Source: an uncultured Eubacteriales bacterium | GTDB taxonomy: Bacteria; Bacillota; Clostridia; Oscillospirales; Oscillospiraceae | Length of the DNA stretch: 64,000 nucleotides | Reading direction: 5' to 3' | Assembly: GCA_900546915.1 (NCBI GenBank) | Contig: UREY01000003.1 | Span: 1-64,000, forward strand | Shown here: in pieces, positions 163 through 64,000 of the stretch | Layout of the letters: every line of letters begins with the position of its first letter | How positions within the stretch are numbered: the stretch's first letter is position 1 | Position numbers and translations under genes: made by a program | Notes under the pieces: generated by a model | The model's input: the letters and a program-made list of their open reading frames with translations, nothing else | Told to the model about the DNA's origin: nothing | Databases searched by the model: none

Positions 163-371
163 ACGTAAAGGAGCGAATTATCGAGGTAATTTATAAATAC
201 GCAAAACAAATCGCGGCTCTCAGAGGGGAGGACTTGGAAATCCCGCCCGCCCCGGCAATCCGCCGGTTCTATACCCATATCCACACCGGTGGGCGCGGAG
301 CCTTCGGCCGGAACTTCCATAGGTAGAATCAGAGAGTTGCATTTGAAGGAAAAGGGCAAAAACCATACAAA

Positions 372-422
372 GTTCAAACATGGGGCTCTGCCCCGTTTGA
401 ACCCCCAAATGACGATTGGGGG
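372..422 (+). promoter_or_regulatory. Two adjacent inverted repeats in the leader of the subtilase gene
   Basis: GTTCAAAC (372-379) pairs with GTTTGAAC (395-402), enclosing GGGG-CTCTG-CCCC. The next inverted repeat, CCCCCAA (402-408) with TTGGGGG (416-422), abuts it and shares base 402. The ribosome site AAGGAGG starts only 9 nt later (431). The position fits an mRNA leader structure, an attenuator, or a small dispersed palindromic repeat, and no ligand-binding class is recognised. The remaining 163-371 stretch shows no convincing gene. Confidence 0.45.
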
Positions 423-444
423 AAATAAAAAAGGAGGATCCTAT

Positions 445-3400
445 ATGAAAAAAAGGCGAAACCTACCATCCCGGCTGTGCGCGCTTTTGCTGGCGGCAGT
501 GCTGTTGTGCTCTCTTGGAGTGCCTCAGGCTGCGGCTGCAGACCCTGCAGTCACCTGGTCTCAGGTGGACGGCAGCGCCGTCACAGCCCAGCTTCCGCTG
601 CAGAAGGCGGAGGAGGAAGCCGCCCCGGCGTACCGGGACACAGAAACCGTGCGCGTCTCCATTTTCCTGGAGGATGCGCCCACAATTTCCAAATTTGATG
701 TGCAAAACATTGCCGAAAATCAGGCGGCCCTGGCTTACCGGTCCGGTCTGGAGACCCGGCAGGAGACTCTGGCCCAGGCCATCTCCACCCAGGCCCTGGG
801 CGGAAAGCAGCTGGATGTGGTCTGGAATCTGACCCTGGCGGCCAACATCATCTCGGCCAATGTGGAATACGGCGAGATTGCGGCCATTGAGCAGGTTCCC
901 GGTGTGCAGCAGGTGCTCCTTGAGACCCAGTATGCGCCTGCGGTGGTGGATACCGATCTGCCGAACGACCCCAACATGTCCACCTCTTCCGCTATGATCG
1001 GCTCCAGCGCGGCCTGGGCAGCCGGTTATACCGGAGCCGGCAGCCGGATTGCCGTCATTGACACCGGCACGGATACGGACCATCAGTCTTTCAGCGCGGC
1101 CGGTTTTGACTACTCCCTGGCCAAGCAGGCGGAGCAGGCCGGCAAAACCGTGGCGGACTATAATCTTCTGGACGTCGAAGAAATCACCGGTGTGCTGGAT
1201 CAGCTCCATGTGGGCAAAGGCGTCACGGCGCTGCAGCTGTATCGCAACACCAAGCTTCCCTTTGGCTATAACTACATTGACAAGGACCTGGACATCACCC
1301 ATGACCAGGACCGGCAGGGAGAGCACGGCTCTCACGTGGCCGGTATTGCCACAGCCAACGCCTACATCCCCAATGCCGACGGGACATTTGCCGGCGCGCT
1401 GGATTCCGTGAAGGTCCAGGGTGTGGCTCCCGACGCACAGCTCATTACCATGAAGGTGTTCGGCAAGGCGGGCGGCGCTTATGACTCTGATTATCTGGCT
1501 GCCATCGAGGACGCCATTGTCCTGAAGTGCGATGTGGTCAACCTGTCTCTGGGCTCCTCGAACCCCGGCGAGGCGAGGCACGCCAAGGCGGAGTATCAGG
1601 CCATTCTGGACCGTCTGGCGGAGACCGGCATGGTGGTGTCCATTTCCGCCGGCAACGCCGGGTCCTGGGTGGAGTCGGCCCAAAACGCCGGATATCTCTA
1701 CTCCGACGATGTGAACATGGATATGGTGGGCTCTCCCGGCTCCTATACCAATTCCCTGTGTGTCGCATCCATCGACAATGCCGGCGCCACAGGCGAGTAT
1801 TTCCTGGTGGGGGACACCACTGTGGTCTACACCCAAAGCACCGGATTCCGGAACCAGCCCTTGGCCTCCATTGCCGGAGAACACGAGTATGTCCTCATCG
1901 ACGGCTTCGGCACGGAAGAGGACTTTGCAGCCGTTGCCGATGTTCTGGAGGGCAAGGTTGCCGTCTGCTCCCGGGGAGACACCTCCTTCTTCCAGAAGGC
2001 GGAGGCCGCTGTGGCCAACGGCGCCATTGCCACGATTGTTTATAACAATCAGCCCGGTATCATCAGCATGGACCTGACGGACTACACCAAGACAGCTCCC
2101 TGCGTCTCCGTGCTCCAGTCCGACGGCGCCATGATGAAGGCGGCAGCCACCCCGGTCACAGGGGAGGACGGGAAGGTTCTCTACTATCTGGGCCGGTTGG
2201 ACGTAAAAGAAGGAATCGGCTCCGCAATTTACACACCGGAGTACAACACCATGAGCAGCTTCTCCAGCTGGGGCATTCCCGGTTCCCTGGAGCTGAAGCC
2301 GGAAATTACGGCGCCCGGCGGCAACATTTACTCGGTCAACGGTTTGGTTGCCGGGGGCACGGCTTATGAGAACATGTCCGGCACCTCCATGGCCGCACCG
2401 CAGGTGGCCGGTATGGCGGCGCTGGTGGCGCAGTACATCCGGGAGGAGGGCCTGGCCCGGAAAACCGGTCTCACCCCCCGTCAGCTGGCCCAGAGCCTGC
2501 TCATGTCCACCGCCGTTCCGCAGATGGAGGATTACGGGGAGGACGGCCACGGTTATTATCCCGTCCTGCGGCAGGGCGCGGGCCTGGCCAATGTGGGCAA
2601 AGCCCTTGCAGCCGATTCCTACATCCTCATGGGCGAAGATGCCGGTGGGTCTTATGCAGATGGAAAAGTGAAGGTCGAGCTGGGCGACGACCCGGAGAGA
2701 AACGGTACATATACCTTCTCCTTCTCCATCCACAACCTGACGAATGAAGAAAAGACCTATGCCCTGTCTGCGGATTTCTTTACCCAGGATCTCTTTACCC
2801 ATGCGGTGAACAACGATGGAGATCAGGGCGATTACATGGACACCTGGACCACCGCGCTGGATGCGGAGGTGACCTTCGACGTGGGACAGGCGGTGACGGT
2901 TCCTGCAAACGGCTCTAAAGATGTGCAGGTAACGGTCCGGCTGACGGACGGCCAGAAGGCAGCTCTCAAGCAGTACCCCGCCGGCGCTTATATCCAGGGC
3001 TATGTGTACGCCAAGAGCGGGAGCACGGAAGAGGGCGTGGAAGGAACCGAGCACTCCATTCCGGTGCTGGGCTTCTACGGCAGCTGGAGCGAAGCTTCGA
3101 TGTTTGAGGTGGGCTCCCGCGTAGAGTACGATGCGGGCGCTGAGGTCCGCCTGCCCTATCTGGGCAACACCAAGGTCAACACGGCGGTGATTACCTATGC
3201 CGATGACCCCGGAACCAAGTACTACTTCGGCGGCAACCCCCTGGTGGCGGACGCCGGCTATATGCCGGAGCGCAACGCCATCAACAGCGAAAATGGAGAT
3301 CAGATCAGCCAGATCTCTGTTGCAGTCATTCGCAACGCCGCAGCCAGCCGCGTTCTGGCGGTCAACGAGACCAATCCGGGGGAACCCATGCTGGAAAGCT

Positions 3401-6400
3401 ACCCCGGCGCGATCAACTCTGCTTACTATCACACCAATGCCGGCTCTTGGCAGGATACCGTCACCACCCTCAACACCAATTTCGTACCCACAGGCGCCCA
3501 GGAGGGCGACCGGCTGGAGCTGTCCTTGACTCTGGCGCCGGAATACTACGTAGACGCCCAGGGTAATGTTCGGTGGGACGATTTGAAAGCAGGCGCGTCC
3601 ATGCGCATCCCCATGACGGTGGATAACACGGCTCCGGAGCTGCTGGATGTGAACCTCAGCCTGATGGGCAGCACCATGACCGTCAAGGCCCGGGACAACC
3701 GGTATGTGGCCGGTGTGGTTCTGTACAATGCATCCGGCACCAAGAGCCTGGCCATGACCGGCGCCATGCAGGACATTCAGCCCGGGGAAGCAGCGGACTA
3801 CACCCTGGACCTGGCCGGGGCGAACGGCAAGACGTTCCTGGTGAAGGTGTTCGACTATGCATTGAACGCCACCACCTACCAGGTGAAGCTGCAGACCGGC
3901 GGGGACGAGACTCTGCCGGACATGATGGCATTCCAGACCGGCAGCCGTGTGTGGATCGGCTTTGGCCCAGAGGAAAGCACGCCCACGGAGCTGACTTCCT
4001 CCGAGCAGGTCTATACCGCAGCCACTCATGTAGACGGCCTGGTCTTTGCCGCCACCAATCGCGGGGATCTGTACGTCCTGAGCGAGGAGGACCTGGGCAT
4101 GGAGACCTGTGTTGCCAACATGGGTGTGGTGCTCACAGATATGGCCTACGACCAGTCCACCTCCACCCTCTACGGCGTAACCGGGAACCATCTGGTCTCT
4201 GTGGACAAGCTCACCGGTGCAGTGACCGACCTGGCGGAAATCCCCTTCCCCACCAACACCCTGGCCTGCGACGGCAACGGCACGTTCTACAGCGCAGTCC
4301 ATGGCGACAGCAGCGAGGTCGGCAACCGGGGCTTTGTGTACGCCTATACCCTGGACACCCTGCAGGGCGGCGGAAACCTGGAATATGATTTTGACGGAGA
4401 CGGCAAGGTCAACGACAAGGACGGCCAGGCCATTCTGGATTATGTCACCGGTGTCCGGGACTCCATTCAAAACGCGGCCCATGCCGACCTGGACGGCAAC
4501 GGCGAGCTGACCTCCCGGGATGCCTACCTGTTTCTCAGCCAGTTCAGATCCGGAGCGTTCGGCGCGGCGCCCCAGCAGATTACCTCTAAAACGCGGAACA
4601 ACGTGAAGACTCTGGCGTGGAATCCCAACGACGGCCAGCTGTATGCCGTGACCTTCTCCACGTTGCGGAACAGTTCTCACGCGTATTTTTACAGCATGAA
4701 TCCGGAGACGGGTGCGGAGACGATGTACAAGGATTTCCGGACCGAAATCACTTCTCTCATCATTCCCCAGAAGACCACCGGCGGCAGCTGGACCACTCCA
4801 ACGGATGAGATCAGCGGCGTTCAGGTCGCTCCCCAGTCCATGACGCTGCTGAAGGGCTCCAGAAAAACCCTGTCGGCCAGAGTGCAGCCCTGGACGGCCA
4901 CAGACCGGACTGTGACCTGGACCTCTGCAAATCCCGAGATTGCCACGGTGGACGCCGACGGCGTGGTCACCGGTGTGAGCGCCGGTGAGACGGTAATCAC
5001 AGTTGCCTCCAAGCTGGATCCCCAGGTCACCGCCACCTGCAGCGTCACGGTGGACGCTTTGGATGTGACGCTGAAGGGCGCTCTGCAGGACGGAAATGGG
5101 AGCCCCATGCTTTTCAGCTGGAACATGGAGACGGACGACAATTGGGTGGCCGGTTTGCCGCTCAGCAGCTCCTTGGCTGCAGTGGCCTATGACAAGGTGA
5201 CGGACCGGCTGTATCTGCAGGATTCTGTGGACGGCTCCTGGTTCATGCATCAGGTGGATCTGACCACCGGCCAGGATACGGCCAAATCCAGCGCTGCCTG
5301 CGGCTTTGGTTTCGCCATGTCGGACCTGGTGGCACTGGAGAACTTCAATACCAAAGAAGAACCCGGTATGATGGCGGTTTCGCAGACCTATTTGATGAGC
5401 GCCTGCGACCCCCTGGGCAATACCTTCAACCAGGGCTGGGACCTGACCCAATATCTTACAGAGTATACCGGAGGCGCCAAGTTTGTGGCAGTCGCTTCCA
5501 TGGGAACGGAAACCAATGAAGAGGGCGTCCTCTGCGATTTGATCTATGCTCTGGACGATGCCGGCTATTTGTGGAGCTTCCAATATGATGGAAGCAGCTC
5601 CATCTCCTTCAACTTCATTCCTACGGATCTGACGAGTCTGAAGCTGCGCTTCCCCACCTACCAGAATTACCAGTATTGCTCTTTGGTTTGCGGCGATGAT
5701 GGGAATCTGTACCTGTCTTACTTCACCGGGGAGACCAATGAGTTCTACCGGCTGTCCTGGAACGCGGAGGAGGAGCTGTACGCCGCAGAACGGATTGGTG
5801 ATGTAGGCATCGACGTGTGGCCCGCAGCCCTGTACGCGGTGGAGACAAACGCTGCCGCTGCAGAGCAGGTAGCCGTGACCGGCATGCTGGAGAAGCCTTT
5901 GACGCTGGAGGCCCAGCCCATGCGCGCCGCCGCACCCATGTCTCAGGTCACCCCCCAGGAGGACGGGAAGACCGTGACCTTGACCATCACCGCCAAGGAC
6001 GGCCAGGGTGTCGAGGTGGATTCCAACAACGGTTTGATCACTGTCTCCTATGACAAGGCGGCTCTGGAGCTCCAAGAGGCGGCTGTGACCGGCGATTACA
6101 CCGCCCAGGTGACCGTCGCCGGGACTGTGACCTTGGGCTATGTGAGCGAGGAGGCCATTGCCGCCGGCAGCCCGGTCGCAACCCTGACCTTCACCTTGAA
6201 GAGCGGAGCCGATTCCGTCCTCACGGTGCAGCATCGGGAAATCAACGACGGCAAGCCCGCCTATACCGAGAAGCTGACTGTAGATCTGGAGTGCCCCTCC
6301 GAGGCATTTGTGGATCTGGATCCCAATCGCTGGTACCATGCATATACCGATTATGTCATTGCAAACGGTCTGATGAACGGGGTGGAGGAGACCCGCTTTG

Positions 6401-6849
6401 CGCCCAACGCCTCCATCACCCGCGGCCAGCTGGTGACCACCCTGTACCGCCTGGCAGGCGAACCCGAGGTGGAAGGGACGTCTTCCTTCACGGACGTGGA
6501 CAGCCATCGCTTCTACGCCGAACCCATAGCCTGGGCGGAAGAGCAAGGGATTGTTCACGGCGTAACGCCCACCACCTTCCGCCCGGAGGCCAGTGTCACC
6601 CGGGAGCAGGCAGCCACCTTCCTGTACCGGTATGTCACCGAGTACCTGAAGCTGGAGGCCGCAGAGGGCGCCGACCTGAAGGACTATGCAGACGGCGACA
6701 AGGTGATGAATTATGCCAAGACGGCCTTTGCCTGGGCTGTGGCAGAAGGGCTCTTTGAGGGCTACGAGGACGGCATGCTCCGTCCCGCCGCCACTCTGAC
6801 CCGGGCCCAGATGGCAAAGCTTCTGACCATCCTGGATCAGAATTTCTAA
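445..6849 (+). CDS. SLH-anchored S8 (subtilisin-like) peptidase with dockerin, Big_2 and cohesin-like modules
   Basis: 2134-residue secreted serine protease. The start is ATG 445, preceded by AAGGAGG. An upstream in-frame start is unlikely because the signal peptide (KKRRNLPSR then a hydrophobic core ending AAAAD) begins here. A propeptide-like region occupies about 60-155. The catalytic triad is Asp206 (AVIDTGTDTDH), His297 (GEHGSHVAG) and Ser648 (NMSGTSMAAP). A protease-associated-like insert lies between His and Ser. A type I dockerin-like double repeat (DFDGDGKVNDKD ... ADLDGNGELTSRD) is near 1314-1370, a Big_2 Ig-like domain near 1455-1535, a cohesin-like beta domain near 1835-1950, and three SLH repeats run from about 1952 to the end. 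The architecture resembles cell-envelope C5a-type proteases, and the protein is likely displayed on the S-layer to degrade proteins. Substrate is unknown. Confidence 0.92.
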   Translation: MKKRRNLPSRLCALLLAAVLLCSLGVPQAAAADPAVTWSQVDGSAVTAQLPLQKAEEEAAPAYRDTETVRVSIFLEDAPTISKFDVQNIAENQAALAYRSGLETRQETLAQAISTQALGGKQLDVVWNLTLAANIISANVEYGEIAAIEQVPGVQQVLLETQYAPAVVDTDLPNDPNMSTSSAMIGSSAAWAAGYTGAGSRIAVIDTGTDTDHQSFSAAGFDYSLAKQAEQAGKTVADYNLLDVEEITGVLDQLHVGKGVTALQLYRNTKLPFGYNYIDKDLDITHDQDRQGEHGSHVAGIATANAYIPNADGTFAGALDSVKVQGVAPDAQLITMKVFGKAGGAYDSDYLAAIEDAIVLKCDVVNLSLGSSNPGEARHAKAEYQAILDRLAETGMVVSISAGNAGSWVESAQNAGYLYSDDVNMDMVGSPGSYTNSLCVASIDNAGATGEYFLVGDTTVVYTQSTGFRNQPLASIAGEHEYVLIDGFGTEEDFAAVADVLEGKVAVCSRGDTSFFQKAEAAVANGAIATIVYNNQPGIISMDLTDYTKTAPCVSVLQSDGAMMKAAATPVTGEDGKVLYYLGRLDVKEGIGSAIYTPEYNTMSSFSSWGIPGSLELKPEITAPGGNIYSVNGLVAGGTAYENMSGTSMAAPQVAGMAALVAQYIREEGLARKTGLTPRQLAQSLLMSTAVPQMEDYGEDGHGYYPVLRQGAGLANVGKALAADSYILMGEDAGGSYADGKVKVELGDDPERNGTYTFSFSIHNLTNEEKTYALSADFFTQDLFTHAVNNDGDQGDYMDTWTTALDAEVTFDVGQAVTVPANGSKDVQVTVRLTDGQKAALKQYPAGAYIQGYVYAKSGSTEEGVEGTEHSIPVLGFYGSWSEASMFEVGSRVEYDAGAEVRLPYLGNTKVNTAVITYADDPGTKYYFGGNPLVADAGYMPERNAINSENGDQISQISVAVIRNAAASRVLAVNETNPGEPMLESYPGAINSAYYHTNAGSWQDTVTTLNTNFVPTGAQEGDRLELSLTLAPEYYVDAQGNVRWDDLKAGASMRIPMTVDNTAPELLDVNLSLMGSTMTVKARDNRYVAGVVLYNASGTKSLAMTGAMQDIQPGEAADYTLDLAGANGKTFLVKVFDYALNATTYQVKLQTGGDETLPDMMAFQTGSRVWIGFGPEESTPTELTSSEQVYTAATHVDGLVFAATNRGDLYVLSEEDLGMETCVANMGVVLTDMAYDQSTSTLYGVTGNHLVSVDKLTGAVTDLAEIPFPTNTLACDGNGTFYSAVHGDSSEVGNRGFVYAYTLDTLQGGGNLEYDFDGDGKVNDKDGQAILDYVTGVRDSIQNAAHADLDGNGELTSRDAYLFLSQFRSGAFGAAPQQITSKTRNNVKTLAWNPNDGQLYAVTFSTLRNSSHAYFYSMNPETGAETMYKDFRTEITSLIIPQKTTGGSWTTPTDEISGVQVAPQSMTLLKGSRKTLSARVQPWTATDRTVTWTSANPEIATVDADGVVTGVSAGETVITVASKLDPQVTATCSVTVDALDVTLKGALQDGNGSPMLFSWNMETDDNWVAGLPLSSSLAAVAYDKVTDRLYLQDSVDGSWFMHQVDLTTGQDTAKSSAACGFGFAMSDLVALENFNTKEEPGMMAVSQTYLMSACDPLGNTFNQGWDLTQYLTEYTGGAKFVAVASMGTETNEEGVLCDLIYALDDAGYLWSFQYDGSSSISFNFIPTDLTSLKLRFPTYQNYQYCSLVCGDDGNLYLSYFTGETNEFYRLSWNAEEELYAAERIGDVGIDVWPAALYAVETNAAAAEQVAVTGMLEKPLTLEAQPMRAAAPMSQVTPQEDGKTVTLTITAKDGQGVEVDSNNGLITVSYDKAALELQEAAVTGDYTAQVTVAGTVTLGYVSEEAIAAGSPVATLTFTLKSGADSVLTVQHREINDGKPAYTEKLTVDLECPSEAFVDLDPNRWYHAYTDYVIANGLMNGVEETRFAPNASITRGQLVTTLYRLAGEPEVEGTSSFTDVDSHRFYAEPIAWAEEQGIVHGVTPTTFRPEASVTREQAATFLYRYVTEYLKLEAAEGADLKDYADGDKVMNYAKTAFAWAVAEGLFEGYEDGMLRPAATLTRAQMAKLLTILDQNF

Positions 6850-25375: not shown

Positions 25376-25402
25376 CTTTTGGATTTTTGTAAAAATTCAA
25401 AA

Positions 25403-25479
25403 GATGCCGTTTCGGCACGTCTACCCGAACGCAGTGTGGGCTCTCAACAATAACGGCCGAGAAACACCAAGGCGGCATC
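25403..25479 (+). ncRNA. Candidate structured RNA element upstream of the ABC exporter operon
   Basis: GATGCCG (25403-25409) pairs with CGGCATC (25473-25479). Immediately inside, TTTCGGC can pair with GCC-GA-GAAA, and an inner CCC/GGG pairing follows, giving a nested stem with internal loops. It lies between a terminator-like hairpin and the exporter ATPase gene. I cannot assign it to a known riboswitch class, and the strand is uncertain. Confidence 0.3.
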
Positions 25480-25641
25480 CGGCTCCTGGAATCCATTTTG
25501 CCGGAAACAGCGCCCCGGGACTCGAAGGTCCCCCGCTTCCAATCAACCAAATTGGGGCCAGGGCGGAAGGAGGCGGCACTCGAGTTCCGAATGTCTGCCC
25601 GACTTTTTTTGACTGTGCATACGCAGGAAGAGGTGAAAAAG

Positions 25642-26616
25642 ATGATAGAGGTTAAAAAAATCAGCAAGACTTTCCGGGTGGCGAAGCGAAACGCCGGATT
25701 TTCTGAAGCGGTCAAGGCCTTGTTTCATAAGGAATACAGCTTCATACACGCACTGCAGGACGTTTCGTTTACCATACAAGACGGCGAAATGGTCGGCTAC
25801 ATCGGTCCCAACGGCGCCGGTAAAAGCAGCACGATTAAAATCATGAGCGGCATCCTGACGCCGGATTGTGGGGAATGCATCATCAACGGCCGCACACCCT
25901 GGAAGGATCGAATCGCCCATGTGCAGGACATCGGCGTTGTCTTCGGCCAGAGGTCTCAGCTGTGGTGGGACGTGCCTGTCATCGACAGCTTCGCGTTGAT
26001 TCGGGACATCTATCAAGTCGAAAGCGCTTCGTACAACAGGACGTTATCGAGGCTGGTAGAACTGCTGGACATCGGTGAAATCATCAAAACTCCCGCGAGG
26101 CAACTCTCTCTTGGGCAGAGAATGCGATGTGAAATTGCAGCGTCCCTGCTGCACAGTCCGAAGATTCTCTTTTTGGACGAGCCGACCATCGGTCTGGATG
26201 CCGTCTCCAAGATTGCCGTCCGGGAGTTTATCCATGCCGTCAACCGGGAGAACCAAACAACGGTGATCCTCACCACCCACGATATGCAAGACATAGAGGC
26301 GCTGACCGAGAGAATTCTCCTGATCGGCAAAGGCAGAATCCTGCTGGACGGCTCTTTGACTGAACTGAAAGCACAAAACACAACGCACAAAACCTTGACG
26401 GTGGATTATTCCGGCAATCAGCTGCCCATTTGCGAGCACATGACGGTCGTCAAAGATTTTCGCGGTCACGGGGAAATCATCATCGATACGGCATGCCTGA
26501 CGGTCTCTCAGGCAATCTCCTACATCTCCTCCCAGGTGGAGGTTCAGGATATATCCGTCACCGGAGAAACAATTGACGAAATCGTCGTTTCTCTTTACAA
26601 AAAGTTTGAAATATGA
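25642..26616 (+). CDS. ABC exporter ATPase (COG4586, viologen-exporter type)
   Basis: 324 residues from ATG 25642 (GAGGTG upstream, 7-nt spacing). In-frame starts further upstream lack a ribosome site. Walker A is GPNGAGKSST, signature LSLGQRMR, Walker B ILFLDEPTIGLD and switch His in LTTHDMQD. The extended N-terminus (KISKTFRVAKRNAGFSEAVK) and roughly 85-residue C-terminal domain are typical of the COG4586 ATPases that work with COG4587/COG3694 permeases. Such systems have been linked to viologen or drug export. The actual substrate here is unknown. Its stop overlaps the next start (ATGA). Confidence 0.88.
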   Translation: MIEVKKISKTFRVAKRNAGFSEAVKALFHKEYSFIHALQDVSFTIQDGEMVGYIGPNGAGKSSTIKIMSGILTPDCGECIINGRTPWKDRIAHVQDIGVVFGQRSQLWWDVPVIDSFALIRDIYQVESASYNRTLSRLVELLDIGEIIKTPARQLSLGQRMRCEIAASLLHSPKILFLDEPTIGLDAVSKIAVREFIHAVNRENQTTVILTTHDMQDIEALTERILLIGKGRILLDGSLTELKAQNTTHKTLTVDYSGNQLPICEHMTVVKDFRGHGEIIIDTACLTVSQAISYISSQVEVQDISVTGETIDEIVVSLYKKFEI

Positions 26617-55668: not shown

Positions 55669-56451
55669 TTACTGGGGCGTGGCCACCAGGAAGCACATGT
55701 CGTTGAGCTCCCCGGAAGCTTCATCAAAGAAATTGTAGAAGGTGAAGTTGTACAAAAACCGCTCCGCGCCGTACACGCCGTAGCCGTCCTGGTTGTGGTC
55801 CGTGGTATCATAGGGGTCCGCCACAATGATCACGTCGTCCTGGGTGGTCTCCGTGCCCATGGTGTCGTAGCCCACGATCACCTGCCAGTGGCCGCCCCAG
55901 TCGTTCCAGCCCACCATAATGGGAGTCCCGGCGGCGAGGGTTTCCTGAATATAGTCAAAGGTAAAGACGTCGTACACATTGTCCTGACAATCGTAGGTGG
56001 AATACAAGTCAAAGCCGCCCACGCCTTCAAAGATGTCAATCAGCTGGCTCAGACTGGTGGCGCCGGGCTCCAGCCCGTTGCTGCGGTATGCGGCCAGAGA
56101 CTCTTCGTTGTAGTCTCCCAGCTTCCCGTACCAGTTGAGAACCATCAGCGCGCTGGATACGCCGCAGCTCCACTCGCTGGTCTGCTGCTGCGTCTGAAAG
56201 TTGCTGAGGATGGTCAACGTGTCGTTGGATTCCATATGATAGAAGTCCAGGGTGCTGAAATAGGGGCTGTCCTGGTGATCGCCCTGCCGCTCGACGCTGT
56301 CCGCGCCGTCCGCCTCGCTGAGGTCGCAGGAATAGGGGATTTTCATCTCATCGGTATAGTTGCCGTGGTTTTCCGCCTGAGTGTCGCCGCAGGCAGTCAA
56401 GAAAAGCGCGCACATAGAGATCACAAGGGACCATACAATTAGTTTTTTCAT
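55669..56451 (-). CDS. Lipoprotein with C39-like papain-fold cysteine peptidase domain
   Basis: 260 residues. The signal peptide ends in the lipobox LTAC (lipidated Cys21). The C39-type triad can be placed as Cys96 (TSEWSCGVSSALMVLNWYG), His188 (GWNDWGGHWQVIVGYD) and Asp212 (VIIVADPYD). The latter half reads like a complete peptidase_C39_2 domain. It would act outside the cytoplasm, anchored to the membrane. TTGGAG precedes ATG 56451. It lies on the same strand, downstream of the radical SAM locus, but is separated by 468 bp and probably has its own promoter. Confidence 0.82.
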   Translation of the reverse strand: MKKLIVWSLVISMCALFLTACGDTQAENHGNYTDEMKIPYSCDLSEADGADSVERQGDHQDSPYFSTLDFYHMESNDTLTILSNFQTQQQTSEWSCGVSSALMVLNWYGKLGDYNEESLAAYRSNGLEPGATSLSQLIDIFEGVGGFDLYSTYDCQDNVYDVFTFDYIQETLAAGTPIMVGWNDWGGHWQVIVGYDTMGTETTQDDVIIVADPYDTTDHNQDGYGVYGAERFLYNFTFYNFFDEASGELNDMCFLVATPQ

Positions 56452-56919: not shown

Positions 56920-57192
56920 TCAGTCTTCCTTTTCCAGCAACCCGTGGGTTTCCAATTCCGTCAAAAATTGGTCCAAATCCTGACGAGCCGCGTCGGGCGC
57001 CACGTCAAACCGGTCCAGGACGCCCTGCAGAATCTCTTCGTAGGACGCCCCCTGGTCCAGGCCGCGCCAGATCTGGGCGCTGACGGGATTTAAGGTGATC
57101 ATGCCGTTCAGCTGCAAAGCCGTCCGGCCCACCGGGACCAGGATGGTCTCCCCCACCAGCTCCCGCAGAACAAATTCGCCTTTGATTTTCAT
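56920..57192 (-). CDS. PqqD-like peptide-recognition protein
   Basis: 90 residues, the size of a free-standing PqqD/RiPP recognition element. The PqqD pattern is clear: LQLNGMITLNPVSAQIWRGL (the NxxGxxIW-type core), then DQGASYEEILQGVLDRFDV and a final DLDQFLTELETHGLLE helix. In PQQ and other RiPP systems this winged-helix domain binds the leader peptide and presents it to the radical SAM enzyme. GGAG precedes ATG 57192. It lies 11 bp after the membrane-anchored gene, at the end of the minus-strand operon. Confidence 0.85.
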   Translation of the reverse strand: MKIKGEFVLRELVGETILVPVGRTALQLNGMITLNPVSAQIWRGLDQGASYEEILQGVLDRFDVAPDAARQDLDQFLTELETHGLLEKED

Positions 57193-57203
57193 ACGCCATT
57201 CTC

Positions 57204-58142
57204 CTATTCCGTGTCATAAGTCCGCACCATCACAATCCGGCTGGAACCGGCGGCATAATGCGAGGGGATGATTTGGACCTCCTCCCCCGGCTGCAAATCC
57301 GTCACCTTGGCCGTGTAGGCAATCCCGCCCACGTAGACGTCCAGGTCCTCCATGTAGTATTTGTAGAAAACCCGCACGCAAACGATGGGCTCCTGGGTCA
57401 GGTTGGTCACCGTCAGGGAGTTGTCTCCGTTGTCCGTCACCCGGACCTGGTCTTCCGACATCTCCATAGCCTCCAGCTCCGCCACGTCGGCCGTACAGCC
57501 GGTCAGGACGGCGTCCCGATAGGCGGCCCGGTCGGCCTCCTGCACCACCACGGTCTGCCCGGCCGGAATGGCGGTGGCCTCAAAGCTCCAGGTCTCGTCA
57601 CCGGCGTTGAGAGAAATCCGGGTGTACTCCACCGCCGTCTCGCCGGTGTTCTCCAGGACCATGGCGGCCACGCCTGTGATCTCCTCATCCGTGCCGTCCT
57701 CCAGGAAGACCCCGTCATAGGCCGCAATCTTTTGAATCACCAGACCCGTATCGGGAATTGCATAGGGAAAGGAGATTTCGCCGGTCTGTTCCGCCACCGT
57801 CTCCGGCGGCGCGGTGGGGGCAACCGTCTCCGGGCTGCCTTCCGTTTCGCTTCCGCTTGCTTCCTCCGGCGGCTCCGTGGCGGAACCGGAGGGAGCAGGC
57901 TCCCATGTGGGGTCCGAGGCCGTGGGGGCGGAGGCAGCCGGCCCGGTGGACTCCTCCGTGGCGTCGGGCTCCATGGTCTGGCTCTGACCGGTCGTCTCCT
58001 GGGGCGCCGTAGTGGCCGCGCTGTGGGAGGGCGAAAGCCCGGCATCCGGCTTCTGGGGCCTCCAGACCAGGGCCAAAATCACCACGCAGATTCCCACCGC
58101 CGTCAGGACCGCCGAAAGGATGATTTTTTTCTTTCTATTCAT
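57204..58142 (-). CDS. Membrane-anchored protein with Thr/Pro/Glu-rich linker and C-terminal beta domain
   Basis: 312 residues from ATG 58142. The basic start NRKKK and one membrane helix (IILSAVLTAVGICVVILALV) are followed by about 100 residues of Ser/Thr/Pro/Glu/Ala low complexity, then a beta-rich extracellular domain (ETGEISFPYAI-type strands, LVIQKIAAYDGVFLEDGTDE, VCVRVFYKYYMEDLDVYVGG). The middle of the domain reads like an Ig/FxLYD-type fold. It sits between the radical SAM and PqqD genes, so it may be part of peptide display or sensing. No family is confidently recognised. Confidence 0.75.
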   Translation of the reverse strand: MNRKKKIILSAVLTAVGICVVILALVWRPQKPDAGLSPSHSAATTAPQETTGQSQTMEPDATEESTGPAASAPTASDPTWEPAPSGSATEPPEEASGSETEGSPETVAPTAPPETVAEQTGEISFPYAIPDTGLVIQKIAAYDGVFLEDGTDEEITGVAAMVLENTGETAVEYTRISLNAGDETWSFEATAIPAGQTVVVQEADRAAYRDAVLTGCTADVAELEAMEMSEDQVRVTDNGDNSLTVTNLTQEPIVCVRVFYKYYMEDLDVYVGGIAYTAKVTDLQPGEEVQIIPSHYAAGSSRIVMVRTYDTE

Positions 58143-58159
58143 GGGCAATTCCGCCTTTC

Positions 58160-59296
58160 TCAGGTCTTCCGGTTTCGGATTTCCTCCTCTACCCGACGGC
58201 AGGCGGCCCCGTAGGCCTGTGCCATCCGGCAGCGGTATTCCGGAACTTGGTGGTACGCGCCGCTCTCTGTGCGCGCCATGGCGGCGCAGGCCTTACATTG
58301 GTCCCGCAGGGCGCAGCCGGAGCATGCAGCGGGCAGGCGAATGGCCGCCGACGCTTCGGCAGCCTGCTTCCACGCCTGGGCAAAGCCCAGGGCAAACACA
58401 TCCGCGCCGCAATCCGGCAGCATCCCGCAGGGCAGCAGCCGCCCGTCCCAGGTCACCCAGAAGCTGCATTTTCCCGCCCGGCAGCGAATTCCCTCGCCCT
58501 CCAGGCTCCCACAGTCCTCCCCCGGCTCGGCGCAGAGGCCCGCATCCGTCTGGGTCCTCCGGCGCTCCAGGAAGGCCTCCTCGCCGTTCATCAGCGATTC
58601 AATCCGCGCGGAATAATAGGCCGCCTCCTCGGGGGTGAAGCGGTCGTTCCGGCCCACTTGGCCGGGGTCCCGGCGCAGGGGCGGGAACATGTAGGAGGTC
58701 GCCTGCACCAGGAGCTTCTCCTCCTTGGCATAGGCAAAAATGCCCTCCAAATCCGCTGCATTGTAGGGGGTCAGGCTGCAATTCAGCTTCACGGAAATCC
58801 CGGCGTCCCGGAGCAGACGAATGGCCCGGGTCACCTGGGTAAAGCCCTGGGGATTCCGGCAGAGCCGGTCGTAGGTCTCGTCGGAGGCCCCGTAAAGGGT
58901 CACGTTCATTCTCACCGGCGGAGCCTGCCGGAGCCACTGCACAACCTCCTCATCTATGAGGGTCCCGTTGGTATTCACGGAGACCAGCAGGCCCATGCGG
59001 TGCAGGGCCGTCAAAATCTCCCGAAAGTCCGGATGCAGAAGGGGCTCGCCGCCGGTGAGCAAGAGGTACAGCAGCCCCTGCTCCTTCGCCTGCCGGGCCA
59101 GGTCCAGCCAGGCGTCCCGCCGCACCAGAGGATGCGCAGCCTCCTGCTGCTCCCGGCTCATGCGCACGTAGCACATGCGGCAGTTCATGTTGCACAAAGG
59201 CGTCAGCTCAAAGGTCCCGCTGAGGGGGATTCCCTGCCTGGCGGCTTTAGCGTGTAAGTATTCTGTGATGGGCGGTTCCACCGGAATGGAAATCAT
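58160..59296 (-). CDS. Radical SAM/SPASM-type peptide-modifying enzyme
   Basis: 378 residues from ATG 59296 (AAGGAG upstream). The radical SAM cluster motif is CNMNCRMCY (Cys35, Cys39, Cys42), and the SAM-binding GGE motif is LLTGGEPLLHPDF. The C-terminal region holds many cysteines (GIRCRAGKCSFW, PCGMLPDCG, CSGCALRDQCKACA) arranged like a SPASM auxiliary iron-sulfur domain. Such enzymes install thioether, C-C or epimer changes in ribosomal peptides. It is flanked by an HprK-like kinase, a PqqD-like gene and a Cys-containing short peptide, which supports a RiPP maturase role. The chemistry is not inferable. Confidence 0.88.
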   Translation of the reverse strand: MISIPVEPPITEYLHAKAARQGIPLSGTFELTPLCNMNCRMCYVRMSREQQEAAHPLVRRDAWLDLARQAKEQGLLYLLLTGGEPLLHPDFREILTALHRMGLLVSVNTNGTLIDEEVVQWLRQAPPVRMNVTLYGASDETYDRLCRNPQGFTQVTRAIRLLRDAGISVKLNCSLTPYNAADLEGIFAYAKEEKLLVQATSYMFPPLRRDPGQVGRNDRFTPEEAAYYSARIESLMNGEEAFLERRRTQTDAGLCAEPGEDCGSLEGEGIRCRAGKCSFWVTWDGRLLPCGMLPDCGADVFALGFAQAWKQAAEASAAIRLPAACSGCALRDQCKACAAMARTESGAYHQVPEYRCRMAQAYGAACRRVEEEIRNRKT

Positions 59297-59389
59297 GGGT
59301 ACCGCTCCTTTCTCATGGTTTCTTGTAATTCGGTCCCGCTTCCTGCAGAGCCTGGGCCCGGAGAGGCTCCCACCGGCAGGAAAAGCCTG

Positions 59390-60262
59390 TTATGTCTCTC
59401 CGGCCTCCTGCAGAACCCGGGCGCAGAGAAGCTCCACCGCCTCCCGGTCCGGGCGGCATTCCAGGCGGTAAACCGGAACCCGGTCCAGGACGGCCAGGAG
59501 CAAATCGGCGACCTGCTCCACAAACGCCGGGTCCCACCGGTGCACCGTCAGCTCCGGGAACAGGGCGGCAAAGGCCTCCGCCGGTCCGGCATCCCGCAGG
59601 CGGTTCTCCGGACCCTGGCGAAGCACCACCAGGGCGGAAATCTCCGCCGACTCATTGCGGTAAACCCCGGAGGAACCGGCGTAGGGCAGGCCGTACGCCC
59701 GCCAACGGCCTGCGCTCCGGCGCAGGGCCGCCCGGTCTCCGTTGATGACCTCCGCACCCCGGTGCCGGACCCACAAATCCGCCTGGGTGGATTTGCCGGT
59801 GCCGGAGGGGGCGGAAAAGAGAATCCCCCGGTCCTGCCAGCGGATGAAGGAGGCGTGCAGGAGCAGGCCCTGCCGGGACAGCAGCAGGCGCTCCAGCCCC
59901 AAAAGGTCGCAAATGTTCCGGGAAAAGGCCAAATGGTCCGCCTTGTCCGCCAAATACCAGCACTGCACCGGGGCCACGCCGGTTTTGGGCCAGAGGACAC
60001 AGGCATAGGGCGTACCCCGGGGCACGGCGCTGTGGTACACCCGGCAGTCCCGGGGCGTCTGCACATGATACTGGCAGACCTCCCAATGCCCGCCCGGCGG
60101 CATGTCCGGCAAAGTCGACGCCGGAGTAAAGGCCGCCTCCAAGTCCGCCGGAACGGAGGGAGAACCCGCCTGCAAAAACGCTTGGGACTCCCGGGTGATG
60201 GTGATGGGAAAGGGGATTTCGCACAGAACGGAAATCCCCGCAACCTGATATCGGTAAAACAT
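59390..60262 (-). CDS. HprK-like ATP-binding kinase-family protein
   Basis: 290 residues from ATG 60262, with GGGAG 7 nt upstream. Walker A PSGTGKST lies at 152-159, followed by ADLWVRHRGAEVINGDRAAL, the HprK-type acidic motif (Asp176). The N-terminal half is the poorly conserved domain found in HprK-related proteins of RiPP and exosortase loci rather than the PTS HPr kinase itself. HASFIRW, just before the P-loop, fits that family. It may phosphorylate the peptide or act as a scaffold ATPase. 93 bp separate it from the radical SAM gene. Confidence 0.78.
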   Translation of the reverse strand: MFYRYQVAGISVLCEIPFPITITRESQAFLQAGSPSVPADLEAAFTPASTLPDMPPGGHWEVCQYHVQTPRDCRVYHSAVPRGTPYACVLWPKTGVAPVQCWYLADKADHLAFSRNICDLLGLERLLLSRQGLLLHASFIRWQDRGILFSAPSGTGKSTQADLWVRHRGAEVINGDRAALRRSAGRWRAYGLPYAGSSGVYRNESAEISALVVLRQGPENRLRDAGPAEAFAALFPELTVHRWDPAFVEQVADLLLAVLDRVPVYRLECRPDREAVELLCARVLQEAGET

Positions 60263-60601
60263 GGCAATCTCCCAAAATATCGTTTCGCCCCAGACGACCG
60301 GCGGCAAAAGCCGCTCCCGCTCAGAGAAGGCCGAACTCCGGCAGGCCCGGACCTTTCCAGGGCGCGGGGGAGACCCGCAGACCAAAAAGCCTGTGACCGT
60401 CGTCCTGGGCGCAGCGCAGAGTCTGTGAGACCGCGCAGGGAGCCCTGCAGCGGGCAAAAGAGAAGCTTTCCCTTTCTTCCACAGGCTCTTCGCTTCACCC
60501 GGGAAATATTGCAGGCTCCGTCCAAGAAACCGCCCGGCAGATGCCGGAGGAAGCCGGAAAATGCGGTCGGCAGTGGGAAAACATGGAGCCCGGATTAGAC
60601 A
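60263..60601 (-). other. Long untranslated leader before the HprK-like gene
   Basis: About 340 bp between the intercistronic hairpin and the HprK-like ATG. An open frame continues upstream in register with the gene, but it lacks a ribosome site and protein-like composition. No internal promoter with good boxes is seen. Confidence 0.4.
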
Positions 60602-60632
60602 AAGGGCTGCAGCAAAGATTGCTGCAGCCCTT
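60602..60632 (-). terminator. Intercistronic hairpin (partial terminator/attenuator) after the peptide gene
   Basis: AAGGGCTGCAGCA (60602-60614), loop AAGAT, perfect partner TGCTGCAGCCCTT (60620-60632). On the minus strand it ends in CCCTTTGTCTAAT. It lies 35 bp after the peptide stop and would give more peptide mRNA than enzyme mRNA. Confidence 0.65.
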
Positions 60633-60666
60633 TTCGTGTCATGCCCCCAAGGGCAGCTCAGCCTGT

Positions 60667-60933
60667 TTACGAGGAGAAGATGTTGTAGCCGCCGTCGGGG
60701 TTGTTGTAGCAAACACCGCCTACATTTTCATCGGCTCCGACAAATGTCGAGCAAGCCGGGCCCTCTACCCACAGAACCATATTACCCAAATCCCATCCGC
60801 AGGTGCTTTTGTCCCAATGGGTCGGCTTTCCCAAGCTACCGCCGCCTCCGGGCGCGCCGCAGCCCGAGGCCACGTTCTGGCTCAAGGCAAAACGCTCCAA
60901 ATGCAACGCAGGTTTCACATAAGCTTCTTTCAT
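60667..60933 (-). CDS. Candidate RiPP precursor peptide, Gly-rich with four cysteines
   Basis: 88 residues from ATG 60933, with GGGGGGA 7 nt upstream (the ATG two codons earlier is too close). The leader-like N-terminus MKEAYVKPALHLERFALSQN has the Y-x-KP-x-L-x-L-E-x-F-x-L-S-Q pattern common to short Clostridial peptides of unknown function. After VASGC the core is Gly, Asn and Trp rich with Cys25, Cys45, Cys61 and Cys75. It is 18 bp downstream of the VWA gene and precedes the radical SAM/PqqD genes. It could instead be a small exported disulfide protein. The precursor role is inferred from context. Confidence 0.7.
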   Translation of the reverse strand: MKEAYVKPALHLERFALSQNVASGCGAPGGGGSLGKPTHWDKSTCGWDLGNMVLWVEGPACSTFVGADENVGGVCYNNPDGGYNIFSS

Positions 60934-60951
60934 GATCATTCCCCCCTTTTC

Positions 60952-63900
60952 TCAGGGCCGGAGCAGGTCCCAGATGCCCCGGAAAATCTTTTGCAGCCAT
61001 TCCCAGGCAACCGAACCGTCGCCCAGCTCCTGGACGTCCGGGTTCTCAATTTCCACATCTCCCAGGTCTGTGGGATACTCCACAACCTCCAGGGAGTCAA
61101 AGGTATCGGCATAGGCCAGCAGCTCCGAGACACTGGCGCCGACGATGCCGGCGTTCTCATCCTCGCTGTCGCTGGTGGTGCGGAGCTTGGTGATCGACAG
61201 CAGATTCTCGCCGGTGTTCTTCACCATGACGATTCCATCTGCATTGGGCGTCACTTCGTAGTACATATCGCAGGAGCCGCAAATCCCGATCTGCATCTTG
61301 CCGGTTCCACTGGTTGCCTCCGCCTGTGTTGCACCGGCGGGTCCCTTCAGGCCCAGGTAGTAGTGCGAATTGCTGCCGGTTGCGACCTGGAAGGCAATGG
61401 ACTGGCCGGGCGCCAAATAGACCTCGTTCTTCGGGCCGTATTCCACATACGTGCCGACCTCAGAGGTCGTGACGCCGGTCTGCCCGTCTACCTGGTCGAT
61501 GAAAACGACCGAGTTATTGGGGAGCTCATCTCCCTCCGGCAGATTCGCTTGCGTCACAAGGATATCCCGCACTTCCTGGAACACGGCGTTCAGCTCGTGA
61601 TCCGCGCCATAGGCGTCCTGAACCAGCTGATCCTCCTCCAGGCCCTGAATGGGATTGTACACCCGCACGCCGTCGAGATAGTAGGTGGAGCGGCCTTCTG
61701 CGGCGGTTGTGACCATAATGGTCACCTTGTATTCCCCGTACGTCAGATCCTGGAAGGAGACGGTGGGAATCTGATAATAACCCGTTTCTCCATTGGACTC
61801 CGCCAGATTGTCTACAATCAGACGCTGCACCTTGGCGTTTTCACTCTCAAACTGAGGCTCCAGGACGGCGTAAACCGTTCCTGTTGTCATATCTGTTTTG
61901 CTATAAACATCTACACCCGTACCGGTGAAGGTGAAGGACGCCTGGGCCACCTCACCGTCCGAAGCCGTCACGCAATGGGCGCAGCCGTCGCTGAAGGTGA
62001 TATCATCATAGCTCTCTTCCCAGCCGTAGGGGTGGCCGTCGTCTACGGTCTGGGTGTTGCCGCCGGAGGTTGTTCCTTCCACCATCTGCGCCCAGTTGCC
62101 CGTGTATTCGATGCCCACTTTGCCGGTATTGCTGTCGGTCACAAAGGTATCCTCATAATACACGCTGTTGGCCGGCATCACCGTAACCCGGGACCACTGA
62201 TTCTCTGCACCGTCTTCTGCAATCTGCTTTCCGAATACGTACAGGTTGTCGTAGCCGTCCCAATTCATAGTCGTCGGCGTATAGGTCAGGCCGCTCTGCG
62301 TCGCCGAAACCTTGCCGTGGTCCTCCGTCAAGTTCCAGACCGGGCTGTAGAATCGGTGCATTCCATCTCCATTCAGTGTGGAAATGGAACCAATGCCCCA
62401 ATCCTGGGCGTTCAGATTGACCGGCTTGCCGTAATCCAAAACATAGGTCTTGCTCTTGAGAATGGTCTTCGGCTCCGGGAAGCGTACAAAGGGTTCCTCG
62501 TCGTCGGTGTTCTCGTAAATGCCCGAGGCGGCGTTGTTGGTTGAAATCTCCGCGTTGGTAATGGCCGCGTCGGTCGCCTCCACGCCCCGGATGGTCACCA
62601 GCAGTACATCGCCCGGGTGCTCCTCCGCAATATACCGCTTGGAGTAATCAAATCCCGTTACCTCGATCGTTCTGGTCTCTTCATCGGCCGTCACAGCAAT
62701 ATCGCTGGGGTTCTCCTCAACTTCGCCCCAGACGATGTTTCCCTCGGCGCCCAACTCGACGGATTGCGTCGCAACGGTGATATTTTCCTGTGCATCATAT
62801 CCGGCAGGAAGCACAAAGCCGTCATTTAGGATATCTCTCAGCACAGACTTCGCGTCCAAGGTCACAGTTGTGGAAGACTCAGTGGAATCATCTATAATAT
62901 ACGTAAAGATCTCATTCAGCTCGTCCGCGTCACTCGCCGTCATGTAGTACTTGTCATCGAATTTTGATCCGGGATAGGTCATACTCTGTGCGAAAGGATA
63001 ATTCGAAGACGTGTAATTCATAAAGCTGACTGTATTGTTCTCAGGATCGCTATCGTAAAGCCCAACCGAATAAACCGTTGCCTTATTTTCATTCTTCAAA
63101 ACATATGCCTTGCTCAACGCACTATTCGCCTCAGAATTTTCATAACCGCTCTTCCCAGGTTCTCCATCAGTAAAGAGCACAACCACGCGCTGCCGCTCAG
63201 AATCCTTATTATTCTCAAAGACTTTTTGTGCCATCTCCAGACCATAGGAAGTACGAGTAGCACCCTCAGCATCAAGATTCCCAATTGCTCTGCTAATTGA
63301 ACCTGCTATATCCCCATCCACATCATTTACTACTACCAATGCATCTTTATAGTCCTGGCTAGACAATTGAGAGTTAGTCTCCCACTTACTGTTCGCATAT
63401 TTCTTCAAATAACCGTCTACAAACAGGCCCGTATTCTTCCATGCGCTATTATCCGTCCCCTTAGATGCAAATCCAACCATTGCAATTCTATGTTCCACGT
63501 TATACTCTTTCGCGTTGGCAGATACGGAATTCACAAAATTCGTGACAGCCGCCTTCAGGGCGTTCAGCTTGGAAGTAGAGGTGCTGCTGCGTTGATATAA
63601 CACACCGGTCCAAATTGTTGCGCTTGAATCTCGCACATTGGTCGGCCTTTGCGTCGTCACGCCGGTACCACTCAAATAATAATTCTGTCCATTTTTCGTG
63701 TAGTACAGGTAGTACGTGGTATAACTGTCGAACCAGTCAAAGTGCCACTCTGAATCGCGCTTTACGGGATAGTAGTTCCCATCTGTATCTAAGTAATAGT
63801 AAGTTGTCTTCCCTCCGTAACTATTATAACTATAGCTTCGGTTCTCACGGGGCTGATAGCTATAGCTGGTTATGGAATCCGCCATAGAGCCGGACTGGTC

Positions 63901-64000
63901 CAACACCAAAACGATGTCCAACGGCTTTCCCGTTTTAATCGTCTCCGTGGTGGTCTGACCGGTAGCATAAGCGGACAACTCAATGGTATATGTACCGTCG
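60952..64000 (-). CDS. Large VWA-domain (MIDAS) protein, N-terminus outside the window
   Basis: At least 1015 residues; the frame runs off the right edge with DGTYTIELSAYATG before an internal TTG at 63978. The von Willebrand A domain carries a full MIDAS: IVLVLDQSGSMADS, then GATRTSYG, then VLFTDGEPG. A Tyr/Ser-rich insertion of about 100 residues follows the DxSxS motif. The rest is beta-rich and acidic, resembling repeat domains of surface adhesins. The C-terminus is WLQKIFRGIWDLLRP, with no LPxTG or SLH anchor. It heads the visible RiPP-type operon and is probably secreted and metal-dependent in ligand binding. The coding DNA is more AT-rich in its 5' third. Confidence 0.85.
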   Translation of the reverse strand, partial: DGTYTIELSAYATGQTTTETIKTGKPLDIVLVLDQSGSMADSITSYSYQPRENRSYSYNSYGGKTTYYYLDTDGNYYPVKRDSEWHFDWFDSYTTYYLYYTKNGQNYYLSGTGVTTQRPTNVRDSSATIWTGVLYQRSSTSTSKLNALKAAVTNFVNSVSANAKEYNVEHRIAMVGFASKGTDNSAWKNTGLFVDGYLKKYANSKWETNSQLSSQDYKDALVVVNDVDGDIAGSISRAIGNLDAEGATRTSYGLEMAQKVFENNKDSERQRVVVLFTDGEPGKSGYENSEANSALSKAYVLKNENKATVYSVGLYDSDPENNTVSFMNYTSSNYPFAQSMTYPGSKFDDKYYMTASDADELNEIFTYIIDDSTESSTTVTLDAKSVLRDILNDGFVLPAGYDAQENITVATQSVELGAEGNIVWGEVEENPSDIAVTADEETRTIEVTGFDYSKRYIAEEHPGDVLLVTIRGVEATDAAITNAEISTNNAASGIYENTDDEEPFVRFPEPKTILKSKTYVLDYGKPVNLNAQDWGIGSISTLNGDGMHRFYSPVWNLTEDHGKVSATQSGLTYTPTTMNWDGYDNLYVFGKQIAEDGAENQWSRVTVMPANSVYYEDTFVTDSNTGKVGIEYTGNWAQMVEGTTSGGNTQTVDDGHPYGWEESYDDITFSDGCAHCVTASDGEVAQASFTFTGTGVDVYSKTDMTTGTVYAVLEPQFESENAKVQRLIVDNLAESNGETGYYQIPTVSFQDLTYGEYKVTIMVTTAAEGRSTYYLDGVRVYNPIQGLEEDQLVQDAYGADHELNAVFQEVRDILVTQANLPEGDELPNNSVVFIDQVDGQTGVTTSEVGTYVEYGPKNEVYLAPGQSIAFQVATGSNSHYYLGLKGPAGATQAEATSGTGKMQIGICGSCDMYYEVTPNADGIVMVKNTGENLLSITKLRTTSDSEDENAGIVGASVSELLAYADTFDSLEVVEYPTDLGDVEIENPDVQELGDGSVAWEWLQKIFRGIWDLLRP

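Follow-up and report, generated by a model that had tools for sequence, protein, structure and literature searches.

The last kilobases of the DNA analysed here, a 64,000-nt stretch from an uncultured Eubacteriales bacterium (contig UREY01000003.1 of assembly GCA_900546915.1), carry a run of minus-strand genes that encode, in order, a VWA-domain protein, an 88-aa peptide, an HprK-like P-loop protein, a radical SAM enzyme, a membrane-anchored protein and a PqqD-like protein. The whole stretch is referred to as the window, its right edge is position 64000, and all coordinates are positions within it. What does this cassette make, and what is a protein related to HPr kinase doing next to a radical SAM enzyme? 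That the product is a ribosomally synthesised and post-translationally modified peptide (RiPP) is very probable. By a narrow balance we favour a fuller reading, in which the PqqD-like protein serves to bind the leader, the radical SAM enzyme introduces cross-links into the core, the terminal serine is phosphorylated by the HprK-like protein and the finished peptide is used at the cell surface.

The cassette as a conserved gene set

The initial annotation had listed the six genes, on one strand and in this order, and the arrangement proved to be real and conserved in a set of 78 loci. These were obtained by scanning genome contigs with the radical SAM alignment, which confirmed 213 relatives, the best 80 of which were retained. 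Two cultured bacteria, Mediterraneibacter catenae and Fusibacillus kribbianus, are among the carriers. The radical SAM gene is thus present in all 78 loci by selection, many contigs end inside the cassette, and one locus, L066, was not counted among the peptide-bearing ones. The peptide was present in 37 of the 78 loci, and all 37 also contained the HprK-like gene; in 36 of them the peptide gene was followed by the HprK-like gene on the same strand within ~2.2 kb. The VWA gene, when searched with the protein of the window, was found in 31/37 peptide-bearing loci and in 0/41 of the others (P = 4e-16). With a broader profile the figures were 34/37 and 3/41, and the three extra VWA loci (L044, L048 and L050) each carry a leader peptide of their own, although L048 and L050 were part of the profile and match it by construction. 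The membrane protein was similarly associated with the peptide (31/37 compared to 9/41, P = 3e-8). The PqqD-like gene was seen in 22/37 peptide-bearing loci, many of which are cut short, and in 31/41 of the others (P = 0.15). The complete set of six genes occurred in 17 of the 78 loci, and VWA, peptide, HprK-like, radical SAM and membrane-protein genes together in 25.

Co-occurrence was also measured in an unselected sample, 299 genomes of one family. The HprK-like protein was found in 69 of these (E 1e-15) and the peptide in 14 (E 0.01), with both in 13 (P = 2.4e-8). As read from the coordinates, 19 of the 20 peptide places lay within 2 kb of an HprK match, and the lone exception is in genome G233, at a place where the contig begins 329 bases away. 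Of 200 genomes of a second family, 15 had the peptide. The idea of a RiPP system, already put forward in the initial annotation, is thus strongly supported by the co-occurrence of peptide and enzymes. The cassette appears to be a conserved gene set with many carriers from animal guts.

Two features typical of RiPP clusters are present: a short precursor gene lies beside modifying enzymes and is conserved across genomes, and a stand-alone PqqD-like protein accompanies a conserved leader whose Tyr and Pro are invariant in 30 aligned peptides. The precursor (60667..60933, minus strand) has a leader of the form MKxxYxKP...E.F, four Cys residues and a C-terminal CYNNPxGGxxIF-x-S. The PqqD-like protein of 90 aa (56920..57192, minus strand) matches the PqqD family with 63.1 bits against a cut-off of 23.4 and is the proposed leader-binding RiPP recognition element (RRE). 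Based on the motif and on family precedent, it would bind the Y-x-K-P leader of the precursor. The radical SAM enzyme of 378 aa (58160..59296, minus strand) matches Radical_SAM with 96.1 bits. Its Cys-rich C-terminus is SPASM-like, the match to SPASM PF13186 being 10.9 bits compared to a cut-off of 21.5, and nine C-terminal Cys residues are invariant in 28 rows. The profile of the enzyme matches PDB 5v1q, which we take to be SuiB, over residues 24-337 and anSME 4k37 over residues 35-342. The enzyme would introduce thioether or C-C cross-links into the Cys- and aromatic-rich core.

A very improbable alternative is that the enzymes act on something else, and that the peptide is secreted unmodified, for example in disulfide-bonded form, as a small partner of the VWA protein. 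The peptide and VWA genes adjoin and co-occur in 31/37 loci, and the four conserved Cys would suit such a role. However, the leader is of the type bound by an RRE, the peptide lies upstream of the HprK-like gene at the close spacing given above in 36/37 loci, and Bacteroidales loci with no VWA gene in view still have peptides of the same leader type close to the enzymes.

The terminal serine and the HprK-like protein

In an alignment of 30 peptides Y5, P8, C45, C75, F86 and S88 were invariant. A profile search gathered 225 homologs, and in the best 120 of these the Ser88 and F86 columns were both 100 %, as were Y76 and N77, with N78 at 95 %; the four Cys and the motif Y76-N77-x-P79 were all at or near 100 %. 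Ser was the last residue in 114 of the 120. The codon of Ser88, the proposed modification site, is at 60670..60672 on the minus strand.

A profile of the leader alone gathered 111 short open reading frames (ORFs), of which the 102 with a score of at least 14 were counted, L140 and the lower-scoring rows being excluded. An HprK-like gene was located within 10 kb of 77 of the 102, and the Ser was the last residue in 73 of these peptides and the last but one in the other 4, while the background rate of terminal Ser was 9.7 % of 4990 six-frame ORFs. Twenty others had no HprK within 10 kb of the fetched DNA, which for most of them meant a flank of only ~1.5 kb; 19 ended in Ser and one in KSPY. The remaining five, also without HprK, had neither a Cys at the leader junction nor a terminal Ser, but they were chosen by eye, four come from one genome, and they serve as an illustration rather than a controlled sample. 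In the Bacteroidales loci L066 and L073, 6 and 4 diverged precursors with a single leader type were seen, each Ser-ended, near the same radical SAM/HprK set. In L113 a peptide of the same leader type ends in STKW, and there was no HprK in the 3 kb fetched.

The HprK-like protein (59390..60262, minus strand) is a P-loop protein of 290 aa with the HprK/PEPCK fold, carrying H136, a GTGKS Walker motif and N174-G175-D176-R177. On the HprK tree it groups with an Oscillospiraceae metagenome-assembled genome (L055) with support of 92/80. It would phosphorylate the C-terminal Ser of the precursor, and we hold the chances of its being a kinase on this residue to be about even. The kinases of lasso peptide clusters offer a direct precedent for a kinase acting on a C-terminal Ser. 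The literature comparisons made here and below draw on parts of six papers (PMC8498205, PMC10368454, PMC9266682, PMC11002830, PMC10352776, PMC8939145). In these parts, HPr-kinase homologs of lasso clusters are described as phosphorylating the C-terminal Ser of the precursor, and B1 RREs as binding the leaders; a conserved YxxPxL leader is described as well.

It is also possible, although clearly less likely than phosphorylation, that the C-terminal F-x-S is the target of the radical SAM enzyme, which would form a three-residue Phe-Ser C-beta cyclophane, and that the HprK-like protein acts elsewhere. According to the cited excerpts MscB joins C4 of Phe to C-beta of Ser, and both residues are fully conserved here in the best 120 of the 225 homologs. 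The 77 peptides near HprK can be divided into two types. Among the 53 of the Clostridial type, 50 ended in Ser and 3 in Ser plus one, and an aromatic residue was found at position -2 of the Ser in 48, as would be expected for such a ring. The 24 long-type peptides, from Bacteroidales and some Clostridia, had an aromatic residue at -2 in just one case, and yet the Ser was last in 23 of them and last but one in the other. These tails keep the Ser without the aromatic residue and thus count against a cyclophane as the sole cause of its conservation. The two modifications are also compatible, since the Ser hydroxyl would survive cyclophane formation.

A further alternative, which we consider unlikely, is that the HprK-like protein is no peptide kinase at all, but a nucleotide-dependent transferase of another kind, or an ATP-driven protein with a structural role beside the PqqD-like protein and the radical enzyme. 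The lasso kinases are described in the partial sources as having a catalytic set of His-Lys-Asp-Asp, and in the proteins studied here N-G-D takes the place of D-D, the position of the first catalytic Asp being occupied by Gly in 118 of 128 readable rows, by Asn in 8 and by Asp in only 2. PEPCK chains lead when the structures are aligned, and the Pfam Hpr_kinase_C match is below the cut-off. On the other hand, all 128 readable rows, some of which repeat one genome, keep the His, the Lys-Ser/Thr of the Walker motif and the final Asp, Foldseek with the model of the protein ranks HprK/P first, and such homologs, as far as the excerpts describe them, are known to act on a terminal Ser.

Besides the altered catalytic Asp, several observations weigh against a kinase dedicated to the terminal Ser. 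In 6 of the 120 homologs there is one residue beyond the Ser. The HprK-like gene is present in 39/41 peptide-free loci as well (P = 0.49 against the 37/37 peptide-bearing ones) and is therefore not specific to this peptide. BsfK is described, in the part of the literature drawn on, as phosphorylating Ser3 and not the C-terminus. When 40 further HprK regions were fetched and Y-x-x-P-type short ORFs were sought in them, precursors being picked by pattern and by eye, peptides of this type without a terminal Ser were found beside HprK in L169, L184, L187, L193, L194, L196, L201, L204 and L205, where no radical SAM gene was found, and also in L173 and L188, which have both HprK and a radical SAM gene. 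Genome G265 is a further case of HprK with such peptides and no radical SAM gene found. A terminal Ser is thus not predicted by HprK alone, nor by HprK in combination with a radical SAM gene of some sort. Finally, the HprK-like protein and the radical SAM enzyme are not separable by these data as the cause of the terminal Ser.

Within the same set of regions, L167 and L170, with radical SAM and HprK genes, had Ser-ended peptides, and in L168 one residue comes after the Ser. On the HprK tree the peptides with Ser as last or last-but-one residue were clustered, requiring 3 changes compared to 11.3 for shuffles, and 0 of 500 shuffles were as low; 14 loci were labelled by hand for this test, L203 was omitted, and near-copies are among the rows. 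The clustering indicates that the terminal Ser goes with just a part of the HprK-like family, the one which travels with this radical SAM clade.

Some of the other HprK regions have a character of their own. L193, L194, L201, L204 and L205 contain HprK-PqqD fusions with S26 and ABC genes and no radical SAM gene that we could find, and the peptides beside the fusions have a Y-x-x-P-like leader and a G-V-(Y/F)-A-(A/G)-S-G junction. These loci look like another RiPP family. Genome G265 (L133, L149, L150, L152 and L153) has short leader peptides at several scattered places, none of them Ser-ended and several with an ITASG junction, and one HprK/PqqD/S26/ABC locus in which no radical SAM gene was found.

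Relation to known peptide systems

The closest parallels are the phosphorylated lasso clusters of the paeninodin and pseudomycoidin type, with which the cassette shares an HPr-kinase homolog, a stand-alone PqqD-like RRE, a Y-x-x-P leader and a C-terminal Ser. Many of its relatives also have a nucleotidyltransferase and an ABC transporter, as these clusters do. Unlike them, the cassette contains a radical SAM enzyme, a precursor with a long four-Cys core, and VWA and membrane partners, and the kinase motif is NGD and not DD, so that the C-terminal Ser is common to both but the full His-Lys-Asp-Asp set is not. The B2 transglutaminase-like peptidase PF13471 was above the cut-off in 0 of 23 genomes of relatives, 6 of which had weak sub-threshold matches. 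By this test in relatives the cassette is not a lasso cluster, and a lasso peptide proper was rejected as its product.

Several NCBIfam systems combine similar parts. SynChlorMet (ScmC/D/E/F) has HprK-like, PqqD-like and radical SAM/SPASM genes. Membership was rejected on the NCBIfam cut-offs (ScmC 18.2 compared to 125, ScmD 31.2 to 100, ScmF 85.7 to 400 and ScmE 77.6 to 400). GeoRSP and HPr-rel-A also resemble the cassette in having a PqqD-like protein together with radical SAM or HprK relatives. Both were rejected in the same way, GeoRSP with 33.5 compared to 100 and 76.3 to 400, and HPr-rel-A with 30.2 compared to 35 for PqqD and 16.1 to 200 for HprK_rel_A. With the triceptides made by XncB, OscB and MscB the cassette has in common a radical SAM enzyme, here a SPASM-like one, and aromatic-x-polar motifs in the core (YNN and FxS), and it differs from them in including the HprK-like protein and the VWA partner. 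Among the literature matches listed, with most subscription papers outside the sources covered, none was recognised as describing this combination of genes.

Partners, neighbouring genes and the cell surface

The VWA-domain protein (60952..63999, minus strand) lies inside the window with its C-terminal 1015 aa, its N-terminus being beyond 64000. It ends in an acidic linker followed by a Trp-rich stretch, which is probably amphipathic, and no LPXTG was seen at the C-terminus. From their sequences, the full-length relatives look like proteins that begin with signal peptides. In L022, L023, L024, L026 and L032 the VWA partner has ~2500 aa instead of the usual ~1100, and that of L022 also has Listeria-Bacteroides repeats. 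The membrane-anchored protein (57204..58142, minus strand, with the ATG at 58142 chosen as start over the TTG at 58148) consists of an N-terminal hydrophobic helix, a T/P/E-rich linker modelled with low confidence and a C-terminal all-beta region. The 50 Foldseek matches listed for it were mostly transglutaminases and fibronectin-type beta sandwiches with a query TM of only up to 0.17, and for this reason no family was named for the fold.

Both the secreted VWA protein and the protein with the membrane anchor may act as surface partners of the peptide. A link to the surface had been suggested in the initial annotation, and the part of it that stands is the genetic one, the VWA and membrane genes each accompanying the peptide in 31/37 loci; display itself is our interpretation, as it was there. 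The initial annotation had thus been right in part, but had passed over the Ser at the C-terminus and the resemblance of the Y-x-K-P leader to those of lasso peptides, as well as the S26, nucleotidyltransferase and ABC neighbours of many relatives and the tendency towards an exopolysaccharide vicinity.

These neighbours were compared with 20 random regions, which came from 4 genomes only, using profiles built from the loci themselves. The PF14907 nucleotidyltransferase was found in 27/78 loci, an S24/S26 peptidase in 26/78 and an ABC exporter in 29/78, compared to 0/20, 0/20 and 1/20 random regions; among the 32 loci that have the VWA protein or the peptide by clustering, the respective numbers were 7, 8 and 11. 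In the relatives, the nucleotidyltransferase, S26-type peptidase and ABC transporter would finish, cleave and export the peptide. In pseudomycoidin biosynthesis, as far as the partial source describes it, the Ser is first phosphorylated and then decorated with hexoses by a nucleotidyltransferase. Wzz, CpsB, Wzc or Wza-like genes occurred in 29/78 loci (13/32 with VWA or peptide) compared to 1/20 random regions (P = 0.005). As 11 of the other 40 HprK regions have them too, the tendency extends beyond this clade. It is on such neighbouring genes that we infer a connection to the surface and to exopolysaccharide, and a surface role of the peptide with its VWA and membrane partners seems to us equally open to acceptance and doubt. 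An extension of this reading, which we regard as rather improbable, is that the cross-linked peptide carries a C-terminal phosphoserine as a handle, and that the phosphate, followed by a sugar or nucleotide added by the nucleotidyltransferase, couples it to the envelope or exopolysaccharide, where the VWA and membrane proteins would hold or assemble it.

Within the window, the search for PF14907 nucleotidyltransferase, S26 peptidase and ABC genes gave just a weak ABC match at 25393-26616 (26 % identity), and these genes may be beyond the window edge or elsewhere in the genome. The window has a chromosomal appearance, containing SecA, UvrB, Dxr and PolC-type genes, and in a search for RNA families in it only a distant tRNA reached the gathering score. 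A perfect 15-bp hairpin with a 3-nt loop (60601..60633, minus strand) separates the peptide gene from the HprK-like gene; the 111-nt stretch around it folds with a z of -2.5, and the hairpin was not found among the predicted terminator-like sites. It is possible that it acts as an attenuator or mRNA stabiliser, and its position 3' of the peptide gene would fit a precursor expressed at a higher level than the enzymes. Just downstream of the PqqD-like gene, on the same strand, a probable lipoprotein with a papain fold (C70/C39-like) is encoded (55669..56451, minus strand). It was considered as a leader peptidase and rejected, and it was left out of the cassette because no relative was found at E 1e-3 in loci L001-L165. 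At the other end of the window (289-6849, plus strand) there is a 2186-aa subtilase with PA, Ig-like and S-layer homology domains, probably a large surface protease.

Tailoring by a kinase at a C-terminal Ser has so far been, in the portions of the literature drawn on, a feature of lasso peptides. Here the same tail and the HprK fold accompany a radical SAM enzyme in both Bacillota and Bacteroidota, an indication that the tail may serve as a handle of general use, whatever the ring chemistry. As the parts of the cassette are small, it is tractable in E. coli. The fixed pairing with the VWA protein and the frequent vicinity of exopolysaccharide genes point to modified peptides that act in the cell envelope. 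If the phosphoserine does serve as such a handle, the cassette would provide a peptide-glycan conjugate derived from a RiPP pathway, common to Bacillota and Bacteroidota.

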